This document shows, in pieces, positions 21,482 to 26,386 of a stretch of 64,000 nt of DNA (positions are counted from its first letter, which is position 1; every line of letters begins with the position of its first letter). Position numbers and translations under genes: made by a program. The stretch is from Acidobacteriota bacterium (GTDB lineage: Bacteria; Acidobacteriota; Polarisedimenticolia; J045), in NCBI GenBank assembly GCA_030949985.1, contig JAUZRX010000023.1, positions 124,001 through 188,000 of the forward strand, read 5' to 3'. The notes beneath the pieces are model-generated. The model did no database searches. It saw only the letters and a program-made list of their open reading frames with translations, and was not told the DNA's origin.

Positions 21482-21485
21482 ATCC

Positions 21486-21503
21486 GGCGGGGTGGGCCCC
21501 GCC
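21486..21503 (+). terminator. GC hairpin after the HEAT gene
   Basis: Arms GGCGGGG and CCCCGCC pair perfectly around a 4-nt loop 5 bp after the stop. No U-tract follows, so termination is plausible but unproven. It lies between converging genes. Confidence 0.35.
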
Positions 21504-21572
21504 CCCCCGGCGCCCACCCCACCCTGCCACCCGCACCAAGCCGCCACGTGCCGTGCCGGGGTCGCGGCGGAG

Positions 21573-22484
21573 CTACCGCTCCACTGCGGCGTCCTCCAAA
21601 ACAGCTCGTTGACGGCGGATCCGGCGCAACGCCCGCGCACACCGATGCCAGTTCGCGACGGCCTCGTCCGCCGTACGGCCGGCCACTTTCAGTCGAACCA
21701 CGGGCTCGCCCTCATACGGAGCCGCATTCCATCGCCCTCCCTTCGGCAGGTGCTGGTAGAGCGTCAGGAGGCTGGAGTCCGTTTCAAGCTCCCAGGGGAA
21801 CGTTCCCTGCACCTTTTCACGCAACTCCGGCCCGTTCAGGCCGCGTCGGGAAAGCGGCCAATCGACGTACCACGGAAGCATCGGAATCACGCCGTGGGCC
21901 TCGAGCGAGTAGCCGAAAAGCAGGCCGGGCCAGCGGGGGCTGCAGACCACATCGATGACCCCTTCCAGCGAATCGCGCGCGTACTCCTGGAAGATCTCCC
22001 TGTACAGGCAGGCACCGGCCGACAGGCCGATGCGGAGGACGAACTCGGTGGGAATCTCGTGCCATGCTTCCGGCAATTCCGCCAAAAGCTGCCCCGCCGA
22101 GCGGTATTCGGGAAACGACACCGCGTCCATGATCGCCTGGCGGGCCGCTTCATCGGGCCTGGAACCGGCATCCGCCTCGAAGGCCCGGACCAGGATTTCC
22201 GCAATCGGCTCCCGCTCCCGTTGCGGCGGATCGAACAGGTACGCGACGATCTGCAGCCATTCCTCCGCCTCCTGGCCGTCGGCGTCGGGGCCGCGGTCGC
22301 GGGGCGCGACGGCCAGCGCCCAGGTCTTGCCGTCCCGCGTCGAGCCCAGCCAATAATCCCACGGGGAGAGGCTCGAGTCCCGCGACCGTGAATCAAGCGG
22401 ATCGACGACGTAGCCCCAATCATCGATGGTCCCGACTACAGTGGAAAACTCCTGATGCACTTCGTCTGCATAGCGGATCTTCAT
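21573..22484 (-). CDS. Uncharacterised protein co-transcribed with metK
   Basis: 303 aa, starting at the ATG at 22484, where AAGGAG lies 7 nt upstream; an ATG at 22490 overlaps the metK stop (ATGA) but is too close to that site. No signal peptide or membrane helix. The sequence is Trp- and acidic-residue-rich (e.g. SPWDYWLGSTRDGKTW near 40-55, PMLPWYVDWPLSRRG near 210) and ends in a basic Arg-rich tail. I do not recognise the family. Its base composition is slightly less GC-biased than neighbouring housekeeping genes. Position in the metK transcript places it under the SAM riboswitch region upstream, suggesting a role tied to methionine/SAM metabolism (inference). Confidence 0.75.
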   Translation of the reverse strand: MKIRYADEVHQEFSTVVGTIDDWGYVVDPLDSRSRDSSLSPWDYWLGSTRDGKTWALAVAPRDRGPDADGQEAEEWLQIVAYLFDPPQREREPIAEILVRAFEADAGSRPDEAARQAIMDAVSFPEYRSAGQLLAELPEAWHEIPTEFVLRIGLSAGACLYREIFQEYARDSLEGVIDVVCSPRWPGLLFGYSLEAHGVIPMLPWYVDWPLSRRGLNGPELREKVQGTFPWELETDSSLLTLYQHLPKGGRWNAAPYEGEPVVRLKVAGRTADEAVANWHRCARALRRIRRQRAVLEDAAVER

Positions 22485-22486
22485 CG

Positions 22487-23674
22487 TCATTCTCCTTGCC
22501 TGCCGGTGGCGACGGTTCGCAGTTCCGTGACATGGGAAAGTTGTTCCCAGGGAAATTCCGGCCGTCCGAAATGACCGTAGGCCGCTGTTTTCCCGTAGAT
22601 CGGGCGGCGCAGGTCCAGCGTCTCGATGATGCCCGTCGGCGTCAGGTCGAAGACTCGCCTGACAGCGGTTTCGAGTTTGCCCGCGGCCACCGAGCCGGTC
22701 CCGTGGGTGTCGATGTCCATCGATACCGGCTCGGCGACACCGATCGCGTAGGCGAAGTGGACCGTGCAACGACGCGCCAGGCCGGCGGCGACGATGTGCT
22801 TGGCCACATGGCGGGCCATGTAGGCCGCCGATCGGTCCACTTTGGTCGGATCTTTTCCAGAGAAGGCACCACCACCATGGGGGCAGACGGTGCCGTAAGT
22901 GTCGACGATGATCTTGCGCCCCGTCAGGCCCGTGTCACCACACGGTCCGCCGATCACGAAGCTGCCCGCCGGATTGACGAGGAAGCGCGGGGCGCCCGGG
23001 CCGAGCGACTCGGGCAGCAGCGGCTCGATGATCGATCCCACCACGGCGGTCCGTAGCGCATCGATCCCGACTTGAGGCGCATGCTGGGTCGAGAAGACCA
23101 CGGTCTCGACGGCGACAGGCGCGCCATCGCTGTACCGCACGGTGACCTGGGATTTGGCGTCGGGTCGCAACCAGTGCCATCGGCCGAATCGACGCAATCG
23201 AGCCTGTCGTTCCATCAGCCGGTGGGCGAGCACCAGCGGCAGGGGCAGGAACTCCGGCGTCTCGTCGCACGCGTAGCCGAAAACCAGCCCCTGGTCACCG
23301 GCGCCGGGGCGGCCGTCCCCGTGACTCACACCCCGGTCGATGTCCAACGACTGACGGTTCCAGGCGATTCGAACTTCACACCCGTCGGGATCGATACCGG
23401 GGAAATCGGCCCGGTAACCGATACCGCGCAGCGTCTCGCGGACGATGGACGGCGCGCGCCTTTCGATGTCTTCGAACAGACCGGGCTTGCCGGAGCCGAA
23501 CTCGCCCGCGACCACCACCAGGTTGTGCGCGACGAAAGTTTCGGCGGCGACCCGCGCGTGCGGATCTTCGGCGAGGAAGGCGTCGAGGATGGCATCCGAG
23601 ATGCGGTCGGCGATCTTGTCCGGATGCCCCTCGGAGACGGACTCCGAGGTGATGAGATGACTGCTGCCTGCCAT
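22487..23674 (-). CDS. metK: S-adenosylmethionine synthetase
   Basis: 395 aa from the ATG at 23674 (GGAG 8 nt upstream). Condenses methionine and ATP to SAM with loss of PPi and Pi. Hallmarks: [20 protein letters not shown] (about 8-27), [12 protein letters not shown] (about 118-129), [12 protein letters not shown], and the phosphate-binding [16 protein letters not shown] (about 258-273). The gene is read from a long leader with two SAM-II-like aptamers and a terminator, so feedback by the product SAM is the likely regulation. The stop overlaps the start region of the downstream 303-aa gene. Confidence 0.97.
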
Positions 23675-23734
23675 ATGGCACACTCCGCGCCCCCATGGAC
23701 GAAAACGAAGGCGATCCCGGGGAGCATGCAGGCG

Positions 23735-23791
23735 CCAACGCTTTAGCGGAATTTGTGAATCGCCCCGCAAGTTGTTGATTAAATCGGCGAT
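23735..23791 (-). promoter_or_regulatory. Second SAM-II/SAM-V-like riboswitch aptamer in the metK leader
   Basis: On the transcript, a P1 helix AUCGCC/GGCGAU encloses GAUUUAAUCAACAACUUGC, followed by UCACAAAUUCCGCUAAAGCGUUGG. GAUUUAA, UUGC and GCUAAA are the conserved islands of the SAM-II family. The loop CAAC pairs with GUUG in the tail to form the pseudoknot. The ATAAAT block of classical SAM-II is CACAAAT here, so it may be closer to the SAM-V variant, which in marine bacteria lies downstream of SAM-II (known). It ends about 60 nt before the metK ATG. A second copy of AUCGCC at 23715-23710 could compete for the P1 3' arm. Confidence 0.7.
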
Positions 23792-23801
23792 GGTCAGGCA
23801 C

Positions 23802-23836
23802 GAAAAAACCCGCTCAGCTTGCGCCAAAGCGGGTTT
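23802..23836 (-). terminator. Intrinsic terminator between the two aptamers
   Basis: On the minus strand AACCCGCT and AGCGGGTT form an 8-bp stem around a 13-nt loop, directly followed by six U residues. This is a classical Rho-independent terminator, about 20 nt after the first aptamer and well before metK. It can therefore act only on the metK transcript, as a switchable attenuator. Confidence 0.85.
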
Positions 23837-23854
23837 CGAAAAATTGGATCTCGG

Positions 23855-23907
23855 CCCCGTTTTAGCTGCATTTATAAAGCGCCCGCAAGCTGAGTCAAAT
23901 CGGCGCT
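23855..23907 (-). promoter_or_regulatory. SAM-II riboswitch aptamer (metK leader)
   Basis: On the transcript, P1 is AGCGCC/GGCGCU, enclosing GAUUUGACUCAGCUUGCG, and the 3' part reads UUAUAAAUGCAGCUAAAACGGGG. This matches the SAM-II consensus islands GAUUUAA, UUGC, AUAAAU and AGCUAAA-A-GGG in order and spacing. The aptamer starts at the predicted transcription start. The segment CUCAGCUUGCG within it is perfectly complementary over 11 nt to CGCAAGCUGAG in the terminator loop, a candidate antiterminator. Confidence 0.88.
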
Positions 23908-23913
23908 GCAGTG

Positions 23914-23942
23914 TTTATACAACCGCGTATGGAAGCTGTCAA
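23914..23942 (-). promoter_or_regulatory. Sigma-70 promoter for the metK operon
   Basis: On the minus strand TTGACA (23942-23937, perfect -35) and TATAAA (23919-23914, 5/6 of -10) are exactly 17 bp apart. The predicted transcription start is near 23907, so the RNA begins at the P1 helix of the first riboswitch. This is the strongest promoter visible in the window. Confidence 0.88.
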
Positions 23943-23971
23943 CCCCCTTTCCACGATCCGCGGCCGGGGCG

Positions 23972-26386
23972 CTACTGCACCGGGAGATCCTTGAAGGTCA
24001 GCGCGGCTCCCGCCCCGTCCACAGCCCGGATCCAGGGGGAGGCGGGATTGCGGGAATAGCCGTAGGTCACGAAGGTGCTGCCGAAAGCCGAGCGCTGGAG
24101 TTGCAGGATCACCCGGGGCCCGGCGACGCTCATGCTGGTGATGGTCACCGGTCCGTCGGCCTGGACCCGGTAGAGCCCGGTAGCCCCCCCGGTGACGTCC
24201 TTGTCGTAGGTGATCACGATCCGGTCCCGCGCTCCCTGGTCGAAAGCCACCGAAACGAGCTGTGGCCCGAGAGGCCTGGACTGGCCGTAAGAGCCGGCCA
24301 GCACCGCCCGCCCGAGACGCCGCCCCGCCTCCTTGTAGCCTTCCACGTTGAGATGGATCGTATCGCTGCGAGGCTGGTCCACCAGGGCCACTACGTCGGA
24401 GAGCGGGTCCGCCTCGGCCTGCTGGCGCTGGGCCTCCTGGATCGCGATCCAGGCGTCGAGGTCCTGGGCGGCCAGGTGGGTCGCCAGCTGGCAGTTGCCG
24501 AAGAAGGCGTCGGGGGCCGCCAGGTCGGCACGATAGTCGGCCACCAGGGCCTCCAGGTCGGCGCGGTAGGCCGGCGTTCCCCGCCCCACGTCGGATTCAC
24601 CCTGGTACCAGATCACACCCCTTATCGGCGCGCCGTAGTTCTGGCTCAGCACCCGGTAGATCGACGAGCCGTAGAGGGTGCCCCGATTGTCCGGATCGTC
24701 GTCCCGTCGCTGCCACTGGGCATAGAGATTGGTTCCGCCCAGGGGCGCGGGAATCACCGCCACGGGCAGGCCGATCCCCTCGGAGACGGTCTTGGCGAAG
24801 GCCAGCATCAAGGAGTGGGCCGGGCTCTCGGCGCTCACCCGATCCACCTGCTCGACGCCGGAGTCCATCGGCTCGGAGGCCCGCTTCCAGCGATAGTCGT
24901 TACCGAACAGATGCACGGCGTCCACCGGGGGCTCGGCCGCCCCGGCGCCACTGTAGCCGGCCATGTTCGACTGGCCCACGGCCAGGAAGACATCGCCCAC
25001 CGCCACCTGGGCGACCCGGGCCTCGCCCAGGGTTTGACCGTCGCTCTCCTGCAGCAAGCGCACTTCCACGTCGTAGTTCCCCCCCGCGGGGACTCCCGCC
25101 AGGGTCAGGTCCTCGTCCCGGCCCTGGGGTGCGGCCGGCAAGGTCCAGCGGTGGTCGGCGAAATCGTGCCCCGCCAGCGGCAGCCCGCTGGCGCTGTCGA
25201 CGACCCGCGCTTCGAGGCGCACGACCTGGCCGGAAGTCCAGCTCACCGGCAGAGGCAGGTCCGCCTGGTCGGCGCTGTTCCGCTGGAACAGCTTCCAACC
25301 GGTCAGGGAGCCGGCCGTCGTGCGCAGCACCAGCGCCTCGGCGCCACCCGGCGCGTTGGCGGTCAGCCGCAACACCGGGCGACGCCCGCCGTCCCGGTCG
25401 TCGAGCAGCAGGCCGTGGCCCAGGAGGAGATGATCGTCGTCGATGCTGAACGTGCCGATTTCCTGCCACACGGCACCATCGAATTCGTCGACGTGGAGCC
25501 GGGAGGCGTCCCCCGCGAGCTTTCTCAGGCGCAGGCGGAGGCGTTCCGGATGGGTTGGTGTCAGCCGTCCCAGGTCTTCGTACTCCCGACCCAGTCGGCG
25601 CACCCGCGAGGACAGGCTGCCGTCCGCCTCCAGGCGCAACTCCCAGCCGGAGCCCGCGTTCTCGGCGTAACTGCCGTCGGACCACAGGGTCAGGGTCAGC
25701 ACCTGGTCCGAAGGAGTCGGGGTATCGAGGTAGACGTCGAGATCCCGCCGGGTCATCGCCCCGTCGAGACGGTCGAAGAGATCGCCCACGCCCCCCGCCG
25801 AACCGTCGTAGCTCACCCCCTGGTCACCGCCGTGATCGGCCACCCGGAAAGTGTCGTTGACCCCGCCGATCTGGGTCATCGCCGCCGGGCGCTGGCCCGG
25901 CGTGTCCCCCTCGAAGTCGTAGGTCGAACTGTCGCAGGGATCCCCCTCGCCGTCCAGATCCTGGTCTTCCTGGCCGGGGTTGGCCAGACCCGGACAATTG
26001 TCGCGGTCGTCGCGCACCGCATCGCCGTCATCGTCGGTGCAGGCCACCGCCGCGGTCCGTGGGGCACCATCGCTGGCCTGCCCCAGGCTGCCTTCACCCT
26101 CACTGTTCCAGCCGGCCACCAGGTACGTCCAGAGAGTGACGGGCACCGCGGGATCGACGCTGGACGTCTCCGGGGTGCGGAAATCGAAGCAGGCCAGGTC
26201 GTCGGCCAGCGGGCTGGTGCCCCGATAGACGTTGTAGGCCGTCGAGCCGCCCTCGGCCGCCCAGCGCAGGGTCTGCCCATCGCTGTCGAAGCGCAGGCTG
26301 CTCGAGACCTCTCCCGGCGCGGCCGCCAGGCAGGACAGGGTGGACAACAGCAGCAACAGACCCCGGCAAAGATGACGCGCAATCAC
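23972..26386 (-). CDS. Secreted SGNH-type esterase (SASA/sialate O-acetylesterase family) with calcium-binding TSP3-like repeat
   Basis: 804 aa. Signal peptide at about 1-22. A beta-rich domain (about 25-110, FnIII-like) is followed by a thrombospondin-type-3-like Asp-rich segment with DDDGDAVRDDRDNC and DLDGEGDPC (about 115-152). A concanavalin-like beta region spans about 155-370. The C-terminal catalytic domain starts with VGQSNMAGYS (about 485-494; nucleophile Ser in GQSNM) and includes GVIWYQGESDVG and the late DTIHLNVEGYKEAG with the Asp/His pair. Homologues deacetylate sialic acid or xylan-type sugars; the true substrate is unknown. A C-terminal beta domain (about 700-804) may mediate sorting. 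Confidence 0.85.
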   Translation of the reverse strand: MIARHLCRGLLLLLSTLSCLAAAPGEVSSSLRFDSDGQTLRWAAEGGSTAYNVYRGTSPLADDLACFDFRTPETSSVDPAVPVTLWTYLVAGWNSEGEGSLGQASDGAPRTAAVACTDDDGDAVRDDRDNCPGLANPGQEDQDLDGEGDPCDSSTYDFEGDTPGQRPAAMTQIGGVNDTFRVADHGGDQGVSYDGSAGGVGDLFDRLDGAMTRRDLDVYLDTPTPSDQVLTLTLWSDGSYAENAGSGWELRLEADGSLSSRVRRLGREYEDLGRLTPTHPERLRLRLRKLAGDASRLHVDEFDGAVWQEIGTFSIDDDHLLLGHGLLLDDRDGGRRPVLRLTANAPGGAEALVLRTTAGSLTGWKLFQRNSADQADLPLPVSWTSGQVVRLEARVVDSASGLPLAGHDFADHRWTLPAAPQGRDEDLTLAGVPAGGNYDVEVRLLQESDGQTLGEARVAQVAVGDVFLAVGQSNMAGYSGAGAAEPPVDAVHLFGNDYRWKRASEPMDSGVEQVDRVSAESPAHSLMLAFAKTVSEGIGLPVAVIPAPLGGTNLYAQWQRRDDDPDNRGTLYGSSIYRVLSQNYGAPIRGVIWYQGESDVGRGTPAYRADLEALVADYRADLAAPDAFFGNCQLATHLAAQDLDAWIAIQEAQRQQAEADPLSDVVALVDQPRSDTIHLNVEGYKEAGRRLGRAVLAGSYGQSRPLGPQLVSVAFDQGARDRIVITYDKDVTGGATGLYRVQADGPVTITSMSVAGPRVILQLQRSAFGSTFVTYGYSRNPASPWIRAVDGAGAALTFKDLPVQ

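Follow-up and report, generated by a model that had tools for sequence, protein, structure and literature searches.

The window analyzed here is the whole 64,000-nt stretch taken from contig JAUZRX010000023.1 of an Acidobacteriota bacterium (assembly GCA_030949985.1). It carries a gene for a second S-adenosylmethionine synthetase, designated metK2, and on the same strand a long leader that begins with a promoter and contains two SAM-II aptamers, the first of which is followed by an intrinsic terminator (Table 1). A gene for a 303-aa protein begins at the metK2 stop codon and probably shares an operon with metK2; its product gave no Pfam match and no homologue in the plasmids or loci examined. 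A preliminary description of this DNA had placed the element at 23855-23942, which takes in the promoter and aptamer 1, but the leader runs on to the start codon of metK2 and holds a second aptamer that was overlooked. The same description correctly surmised a phylum other than Proteobacteria, and its naming of the controlled gene is supported by Pfam and PDB homologues. The gene is an extra copy: the ordinary metK of the same genome lies elsewhere (G000:C15) and is 57% identical to metK2.

Table 1. Features of the metK2 locus (positions in the window) and of related betaproteobacterial metK leaders.
Feature	Position	Strand	Basis or remark
-35 box TTGACA	23942-23937	-	pattern search
-10 box TATAAA	23919-23914	-	17-nt spacer to -35; pattern search
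Predicted transcript start	~23908-23906	-	position from sequence only
SAM-II aptamer 1	23849-23909	-	RF00521 39.4 bits; model R1 62.9 bits, E 7e-17
Putative antiterminator strand 1, CTCAGCTTGCG	23884-23894	-	within aptamer 1; 11/11 complement of 23823-23813
Putative antiterminator strand 2, GCTAAAACGGGG	23855-23866	-	in free MFE fold pairs with terminator 5' arm CCCGCTTTGGC, 23833-23823
Intrinsic terminator, AAACCCGCT...AGCGGGTTTTTT	23836-23803	-	folding/pattern search
SAM-II aptamer 2	23730-23793	-	model R1 73.5 bits, E 5.9e-20; covariation in relatives
Predicted hairpin, Shine-Dalgarno GGAG (23686-23683) with CUCC strand (~23731-23728)	23683-23735	-	folding
metK2, second S-adenosylmethionine synthetase gene	22487-23674 (start 23674)	-	Pfam and PDB homologues
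Gene of 303-aa protein, begins at metK2 stop	21573-22484	-	no Pfam match
~2.5-kb block (303-aa gene, metK2, tandem leader)	21482-23971		absent at orthologous site of G001
SAM-II-like element, GAGUUAA...GACAACUUGC...variable hairpin...GCUAAAGCGUC	~60-190 nt upstream of metK		Betaproteobacteria; no Rfam family at cut-off
Loci of SAM-II-like metK element (1)	L034, L036, L037, L039, L040, L041, L043, L044, L045, L046		
Loci of SAM-II-like metK element (2)	L048, L051, L053, L054, L057, L058, L060, L062, L101		

The near-perfect sigma-70 promoter reported upstream of the leader (TTGACA-N17-TATAAA, minus strand, 23942-23914) is present, and is the sole match with fewer than two mismatches in the 64 kb, where 0.07 matches would be expected at up to two mismatches. 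It was located by pattern search because the automatic promoter scan requires a T at the final position of the -10 box and left TATAAA unlisted. The Rfam SAM-II model (RF00521, SAM_alpha) matched positions 23916-23839 of the minus strand at 39.4 bits (gathering cut-off 36, E 2.3e-5 in the window search), and this was its single match in the 3.7-Mb genome; that the threshold is cleared by 3 bits only was counted against the explanation given below. All four conserved islands of the preliminary description (GAUUUGA, UUGC within CUUGC, AUAAAU and GCUAAAA) are found in aptamer 1, together with a P1 helix of 6 bp (AGCGCC 23907-23902 / GGCGCT 23883-23878) and a P2 of 3 bp. The SAM-V model, which had been proposed as a parallel check, gave no match at E <= 10 in 23600-23990, and the SAM-II long loop model (RF01726) reached 16.4 bits against a cut-off of 44. 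PyrR, Leu_leader, RybB and other weak Rfam matches in the leader were rejected as absent or far under their thresholds. The terminator that had been noted after the aptamer is also there, and was passed over by the automatic scan, which is limited to loops of 3-8 nt; at 29 of 33 nt it agrees with the terminator that belongs to a SAM-II leader from a proteobacterium (L215). SAM-II riboswitches typically have a near-consensus promoter a few nt 5' of P1 and often a terminator 3' of P2 (Corbino 2005, PMC1273637). The leader shares this arrangement, as well as the H-type pseudoknot of P1 and P2, the GAUUUG/A, UUGC and GCUAAA motifs, and a methionine/SAM gene downstream, and differs in carrying two consecutive copies, in controlling an extra metK, in its acidobacterial host, and in a second aptamer that lies under Rfam detection.

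Aptamer 2 sits between the terminator and metK2. It was not reported in the search of the leader with RF00521 and the rest of Rfam, and was detected with R1, a covariance model trained on 17 related aptamers that include neither copy from the window; R1 matches aptamers 1 and 2 and nothing else, whether the window or the whole genome is searched. Its sequence, AUCGCC-GAUUUAAUCAACAACUUGCGG-GGCGAU-UCACAAAUUCC-GCUAAAGCGUUGG, provides a P1 of 6 bp (ATCGCC 23791-23786 / GGCGAT 23764-23759) and a P2 of 4-5 bp (CAAC 23777-23774 / GUUG 23739-23736), and the conserved GAUUU(G/A), UUGC and GCUAAA core is present in both aptamers, which belong to the proteobacterial metZ/metK subtype of SAM-II. Across P1 and P2 of the 17 relatives, 89.8% of cells are paired (72.4% when shuffled), with 27 double-sided changes against 8.2. 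In this alignment of the subtype, made without the window, 6 of 10 pairs vary on both sides and the covariation score is 0.405, a value reached by 0 of 500 shuffles (0.118 when shuffled), while a fixed P2 register gives 56 stacked pairs where 36 are expected (0 of 10,000 permutations), counts that are not strict probabilities, since the relatives share ancestry, so that the double-sided changes are the direct evidence. Sliding the partners of P1 and P2 abolishes the covariation signal. Two genomes of the same family, G002 and G005, have near-identical second copies in which the P2 pairing CAAC/GUUG has become CUGAC/GUCAG, a compensating change. With two SAM-II aptamers in one leader and a terminator after the first, as in published doublets, the leader is, judged by sequence and covariation, a real and well-supported tandem SAM-II riboswitch of a kind already known.

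In the metK tree, metK2 groups with copies from Gallionella (L031) and Thiobacillus MAGs (support 98/90), whereas the ordinary metK groups with that of its own family (100/98). The wider metK2 clade has six members (100/99) and includes the Acidobacteriota families f49 and f66, a placement that was counted against regarding the direction of transfer as settled; in f66, metK is preceded by a single SAM-II. The Gallionella genome likewise possesses an ordinary metK and, in addition, the sister metK2 with a tandem SAM-II leader, whose second aptamer overlaps the ribosome site. The genes around this metK2 in Gallionella (L031, 523-6003) look accessory, being phage-like and HD hydrolase-like by eye, and suggest a mobile region. 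Among 396 Acidobacteriota genomes, no other metK resembled metK2 closely enough to imply a recent common origin, the best reaching 62% identity. The HEAT-repeat and SASA esterase genes that flank the block are 65-90 nt apart in G001, a genome of the same genus, while in the window about 2.5 kb stand between them, so that G001 presents a clean empty site. Taken together, these comparisons suggest that metK2 was probably acquired horizontally together with its leader. The alternative, that metK2 is a fast-diverged duplicate of the ordinary metK arisen within the lineage, is not rejected by the AU test (p 0.119, delta lnL 47) and would be in keeping with the long branch of metK2 and the similar GC of the two genes (0.662 and 0.664). 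It would leave to be explained the well-supported grouping with the Gallionella and Thiobacillus copies and the six-member clade, the tandem leader held in common with Gallionella, a terminator of proteobacterial type, and the empty site in the same genus; duplication within the family is therefore considered unlikely, and less likely than acquisition with the leader.

A plausible switch can be drawn for aptamer 1. The sequence CUCAGCUUGCG (23894-23884) belongs to the SAM-binding core. At 11 of 11 nt it is complementary to CGCAAGCUGAG, which lies in the loop and 3' arm of the terminator, a degree of complementarity reached by 0.08% of dinucleotide shuffles (P 0.0008). In the free MFE fold the helix of strand 1 extends across the 3' arm of the terminator and GCUAAAACGGGG takes the 5' arm. 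This antiterminated fold has a predicted energy of -39.8 kcal/mol, against -35.5 kcal/mol for a fold constrained to contain P1 and the terminator, values that come from nested folding and exclude the contributions of SAM and the pseudoknot. In the absence of SAM, GAUUUGACUCAGCUUGCG would bind the 3' arm of the terminator and GCUAAAACGGGG its 5' arm, and polymerase would read through; with SAM bound, both conserved strands would be held in the pseudoknot and the terminator would form. The close energy balance, together with SAM and pseudoknot contributions that the program does not count and that would favor the terminator, fits a textbook OFF switch. The motif GCUUUAGC of the terminator arm, complementary to GCUAAAGC of the aptamer, often recurs in proteobacterial relatives. 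Over 33 leaders, complementarity of strand 1 is not general (mean 4.8 nt, 4.3 nt when shuffled) and that of strand 2 is commoner (6.3 versus 4.9 nt); this test clipped the downstream region of the window at an earlier run of T, and the dinucleotide-shuffle test is the one valid for the window. The strands of aptamer 1 and the terminator arms make a credible antiterminator by folding, while the binding of SAM and the OFF direction are inferred, SAM being taken as the driver from family membership.

Aptamer 2, lying past the terminator and adjoining the ribosome site, would most likely act as a second SAM-dependent check, this time on translation. In every predicted state a CUCC strand directly 3' of aptamer 2 pairs with most of the Shine-Dalgarno sequence, and a P2 strand of the aptamer overlaps the foot of this hairpin by 2-3 nt. 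A similar CUCC/GGAG arrangement was recognized by eye in betaproteobacterial metK leaders. On this basis aptamer 2 is likely to control translation, which agrees with published doublets (PMC9481103); its effect and sign are uncertain because the hairpin is predicted in all states, with no clear SAM-free fold that frees the ribosome site among those examined. That last result, and the silence of Rfam, are what might be expected if aptamer 1 worked alone and aptamer 2 were a decayed, functionless duplicate. Decay would have cost it the core, however, and aptamer 2 outscores aptamer 1 with R1 (73.5 versus 62.9 bits), has P1 and P2 intact, has counterparts with compensating P2 changes in G002 and G005, and corresponds to an element that precedes metK singly in many betaproteobacteria, all of which makes this reading improbable. 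It is more improbable still that both elements sense a ligand other than SAM: the subtype does show small changes near the core (GAGUUAA in betaproteobacteria), as a variant of altered specificity might, but GAUUU..UUGC..GCUAAA is intact and the genes downstream are metK, metX, metZ and other methionine genes. Proteobacterial contamination, which the look of metK2 and its leader might bring to mind, is excluded by the clean empty site and by flank synteny, several genes on both sides aligning at 76-80% to one contig of G001, and the contig that contains the window is 301 kb long and comes from a genome whose contamination is 0.8%. The reading preferred here, with a probability of roughly 0.8, is that a tandem SAM-II leader would place an accessory, probably acquired SAM synthetase gene under feedback control by SAM.

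Tandem arrangements of this type are documented: 44 SAM-II doublets with mixed platforms have been published, and a two-level logic has been proposed for these and for SAM-II/SAM-V pairs (PMC9481103). Like the doublets, the leader of metK2 has its first aptamer coupled to a terminator and its second close to the ribosome site of a single gene; it differs in that the controlled gene is a mobile-looking metK2 and in its host, Acidobacteriota being unmentioned in the main text of that paper. It resembles the SAM-II/SAM-V tandem in having a transcription switch upstream of another SAM aptamer, which here is a SAM-II (3' P2) and not a SAM-V. Further acidobacterial tandems were seen at L006 (G094, reverse strand, 713-960), before a gene resembling PLP enzymes of Cys/Met metabolism, and at L008, L011 and L012, before threonine synthase (thrC). 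One genome of the Gallionella class (G660, L209) has ten R1 matches in five close pairs, equivalent to five tandem SAM-II leaders. SAM-II aptamers also precede an operon with a MoxR-type AAA ATPase and a DUF2201-like protein (putative metallopeptidase) at L139 (10-4868, G002), L140 (3881-4270, G005) and L202 (G531); the G005 copy is a full tandem, the G002 operon also encodes a divergent MetK homologue (34%), and a similar MoxR gene is found behind a tandem SAM-II in one Gallionella-class genome.

The occurrence of SAM-II outside Alphaproteobacteria was already known. The preliminary description had suggested that the locus may widen the range of this riboswitch, which is modestly true, since the Rfam model already reaches Acidobacteriota, clearing its cut-off in 34 of the 396 sampled genomes, mostly of one family (f30). 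The carriers include what appears to be Pyrinomonas methylaliphatogenes, a member of a different class from the window, judged by SAM-II matches that share their coordinates between G119, of the same phylum as the window, and G120, the genome of locus L050 (P. methylaliphatogenes); where the genes downstream could be read (named by eye) they were metH, thrC and other methionine/threonine genes. The novelty first seen in the locus is modest, given that SAM-II had been met outside Alphaproteobacteria before and that mixed-platform doublets of it have been published.

Two entries of the literature and of Rfam can be reconsidered in this light. A 'metXZ' pseudoknot with a terminator/antiterminator, found before metX and metZ in Betaproteobacteria, was published as a new element with no ligand assigned (Leyn 2014, PMC4239095). 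In the genomes examined, RF00521 and R1 matches stand exactly before these genes, with the same layout, so that metXZ, compared by description and layout, is very probably SAM-II; no paper equating the two was found in the literature searched, though others may exist. Proteobacterial SAM-II matches fitting the description of metXZ occur at L114 and L115 (metX), and at L119, L204, L206, L207, L208 and others (metZ). The second entry is the Burkholderia sRNA family Bp2_287 (RF02424), whose model matches the opposite, plus strand of the leader (23803-23930) at 38.3 bits, under its cut-off of 70. An sRNA on that strand was rejected here, since the match is below cut-off and can be put down to its lying antisense to the SAM-II leader; the family itself, annotated as an sRNA, may have been modelled on the wrong strand and so describe a SAM-II leader in reverse complement.

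When R1 was run over 80 metK loci (528 kb), all 20 matches lay directly upstream of betaproteobacterial metK genes and none elsewhere. They represent 20 of about 28 betaproteobacterial loci, the matched ones coming either from named records or from entries with the label Proteobacteria, and 12 of the 20 are outside the model. Rfam 15 assigned no family at its cut-off to these leaders, many of which carry GAGUUAA together with a variable insert ahead of AAAUnCyGCUAAAGCGUC; GAGUUA is also found in acidobacterial matches that clear the Rfam cut-off. The comparison reveals a gap in the sensitivity of the Rfam SAM-II model, R1 finding a SAM-II-like leader at the majority of the metK loci from Betaproteobacteria that were examined. 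We lean, with some reserve, towards the view that aptamer 2 represents an unlabelled SAM-II subtype, often with GAGUUAA in place of GAUUUGA and a variable hairpin insert, that serves throughout Betaproteobacteria as the usual means of feedback on metK and passes from phylum to phylum together with metK2, the two forming a cassette with tandem riboswitches.

Two parts most merit follow-up: the metK leader of Betaproteobacteria, which has gone unlabelled, and the metK2 unit, which looks mobile. The latter would be a whole SAM-feedback unit in which a tandem riboswitch is joined to a SAM synthetase of its own; one genome has it and the nearest relative compared lacks it at the corresponding position, so that gene and regulator probably move together. 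The former, if confirmed, would fill a gap in the control of metK in beta-proteobacteria, for which no regulator was known (Leyn 2014, PMC4239095).
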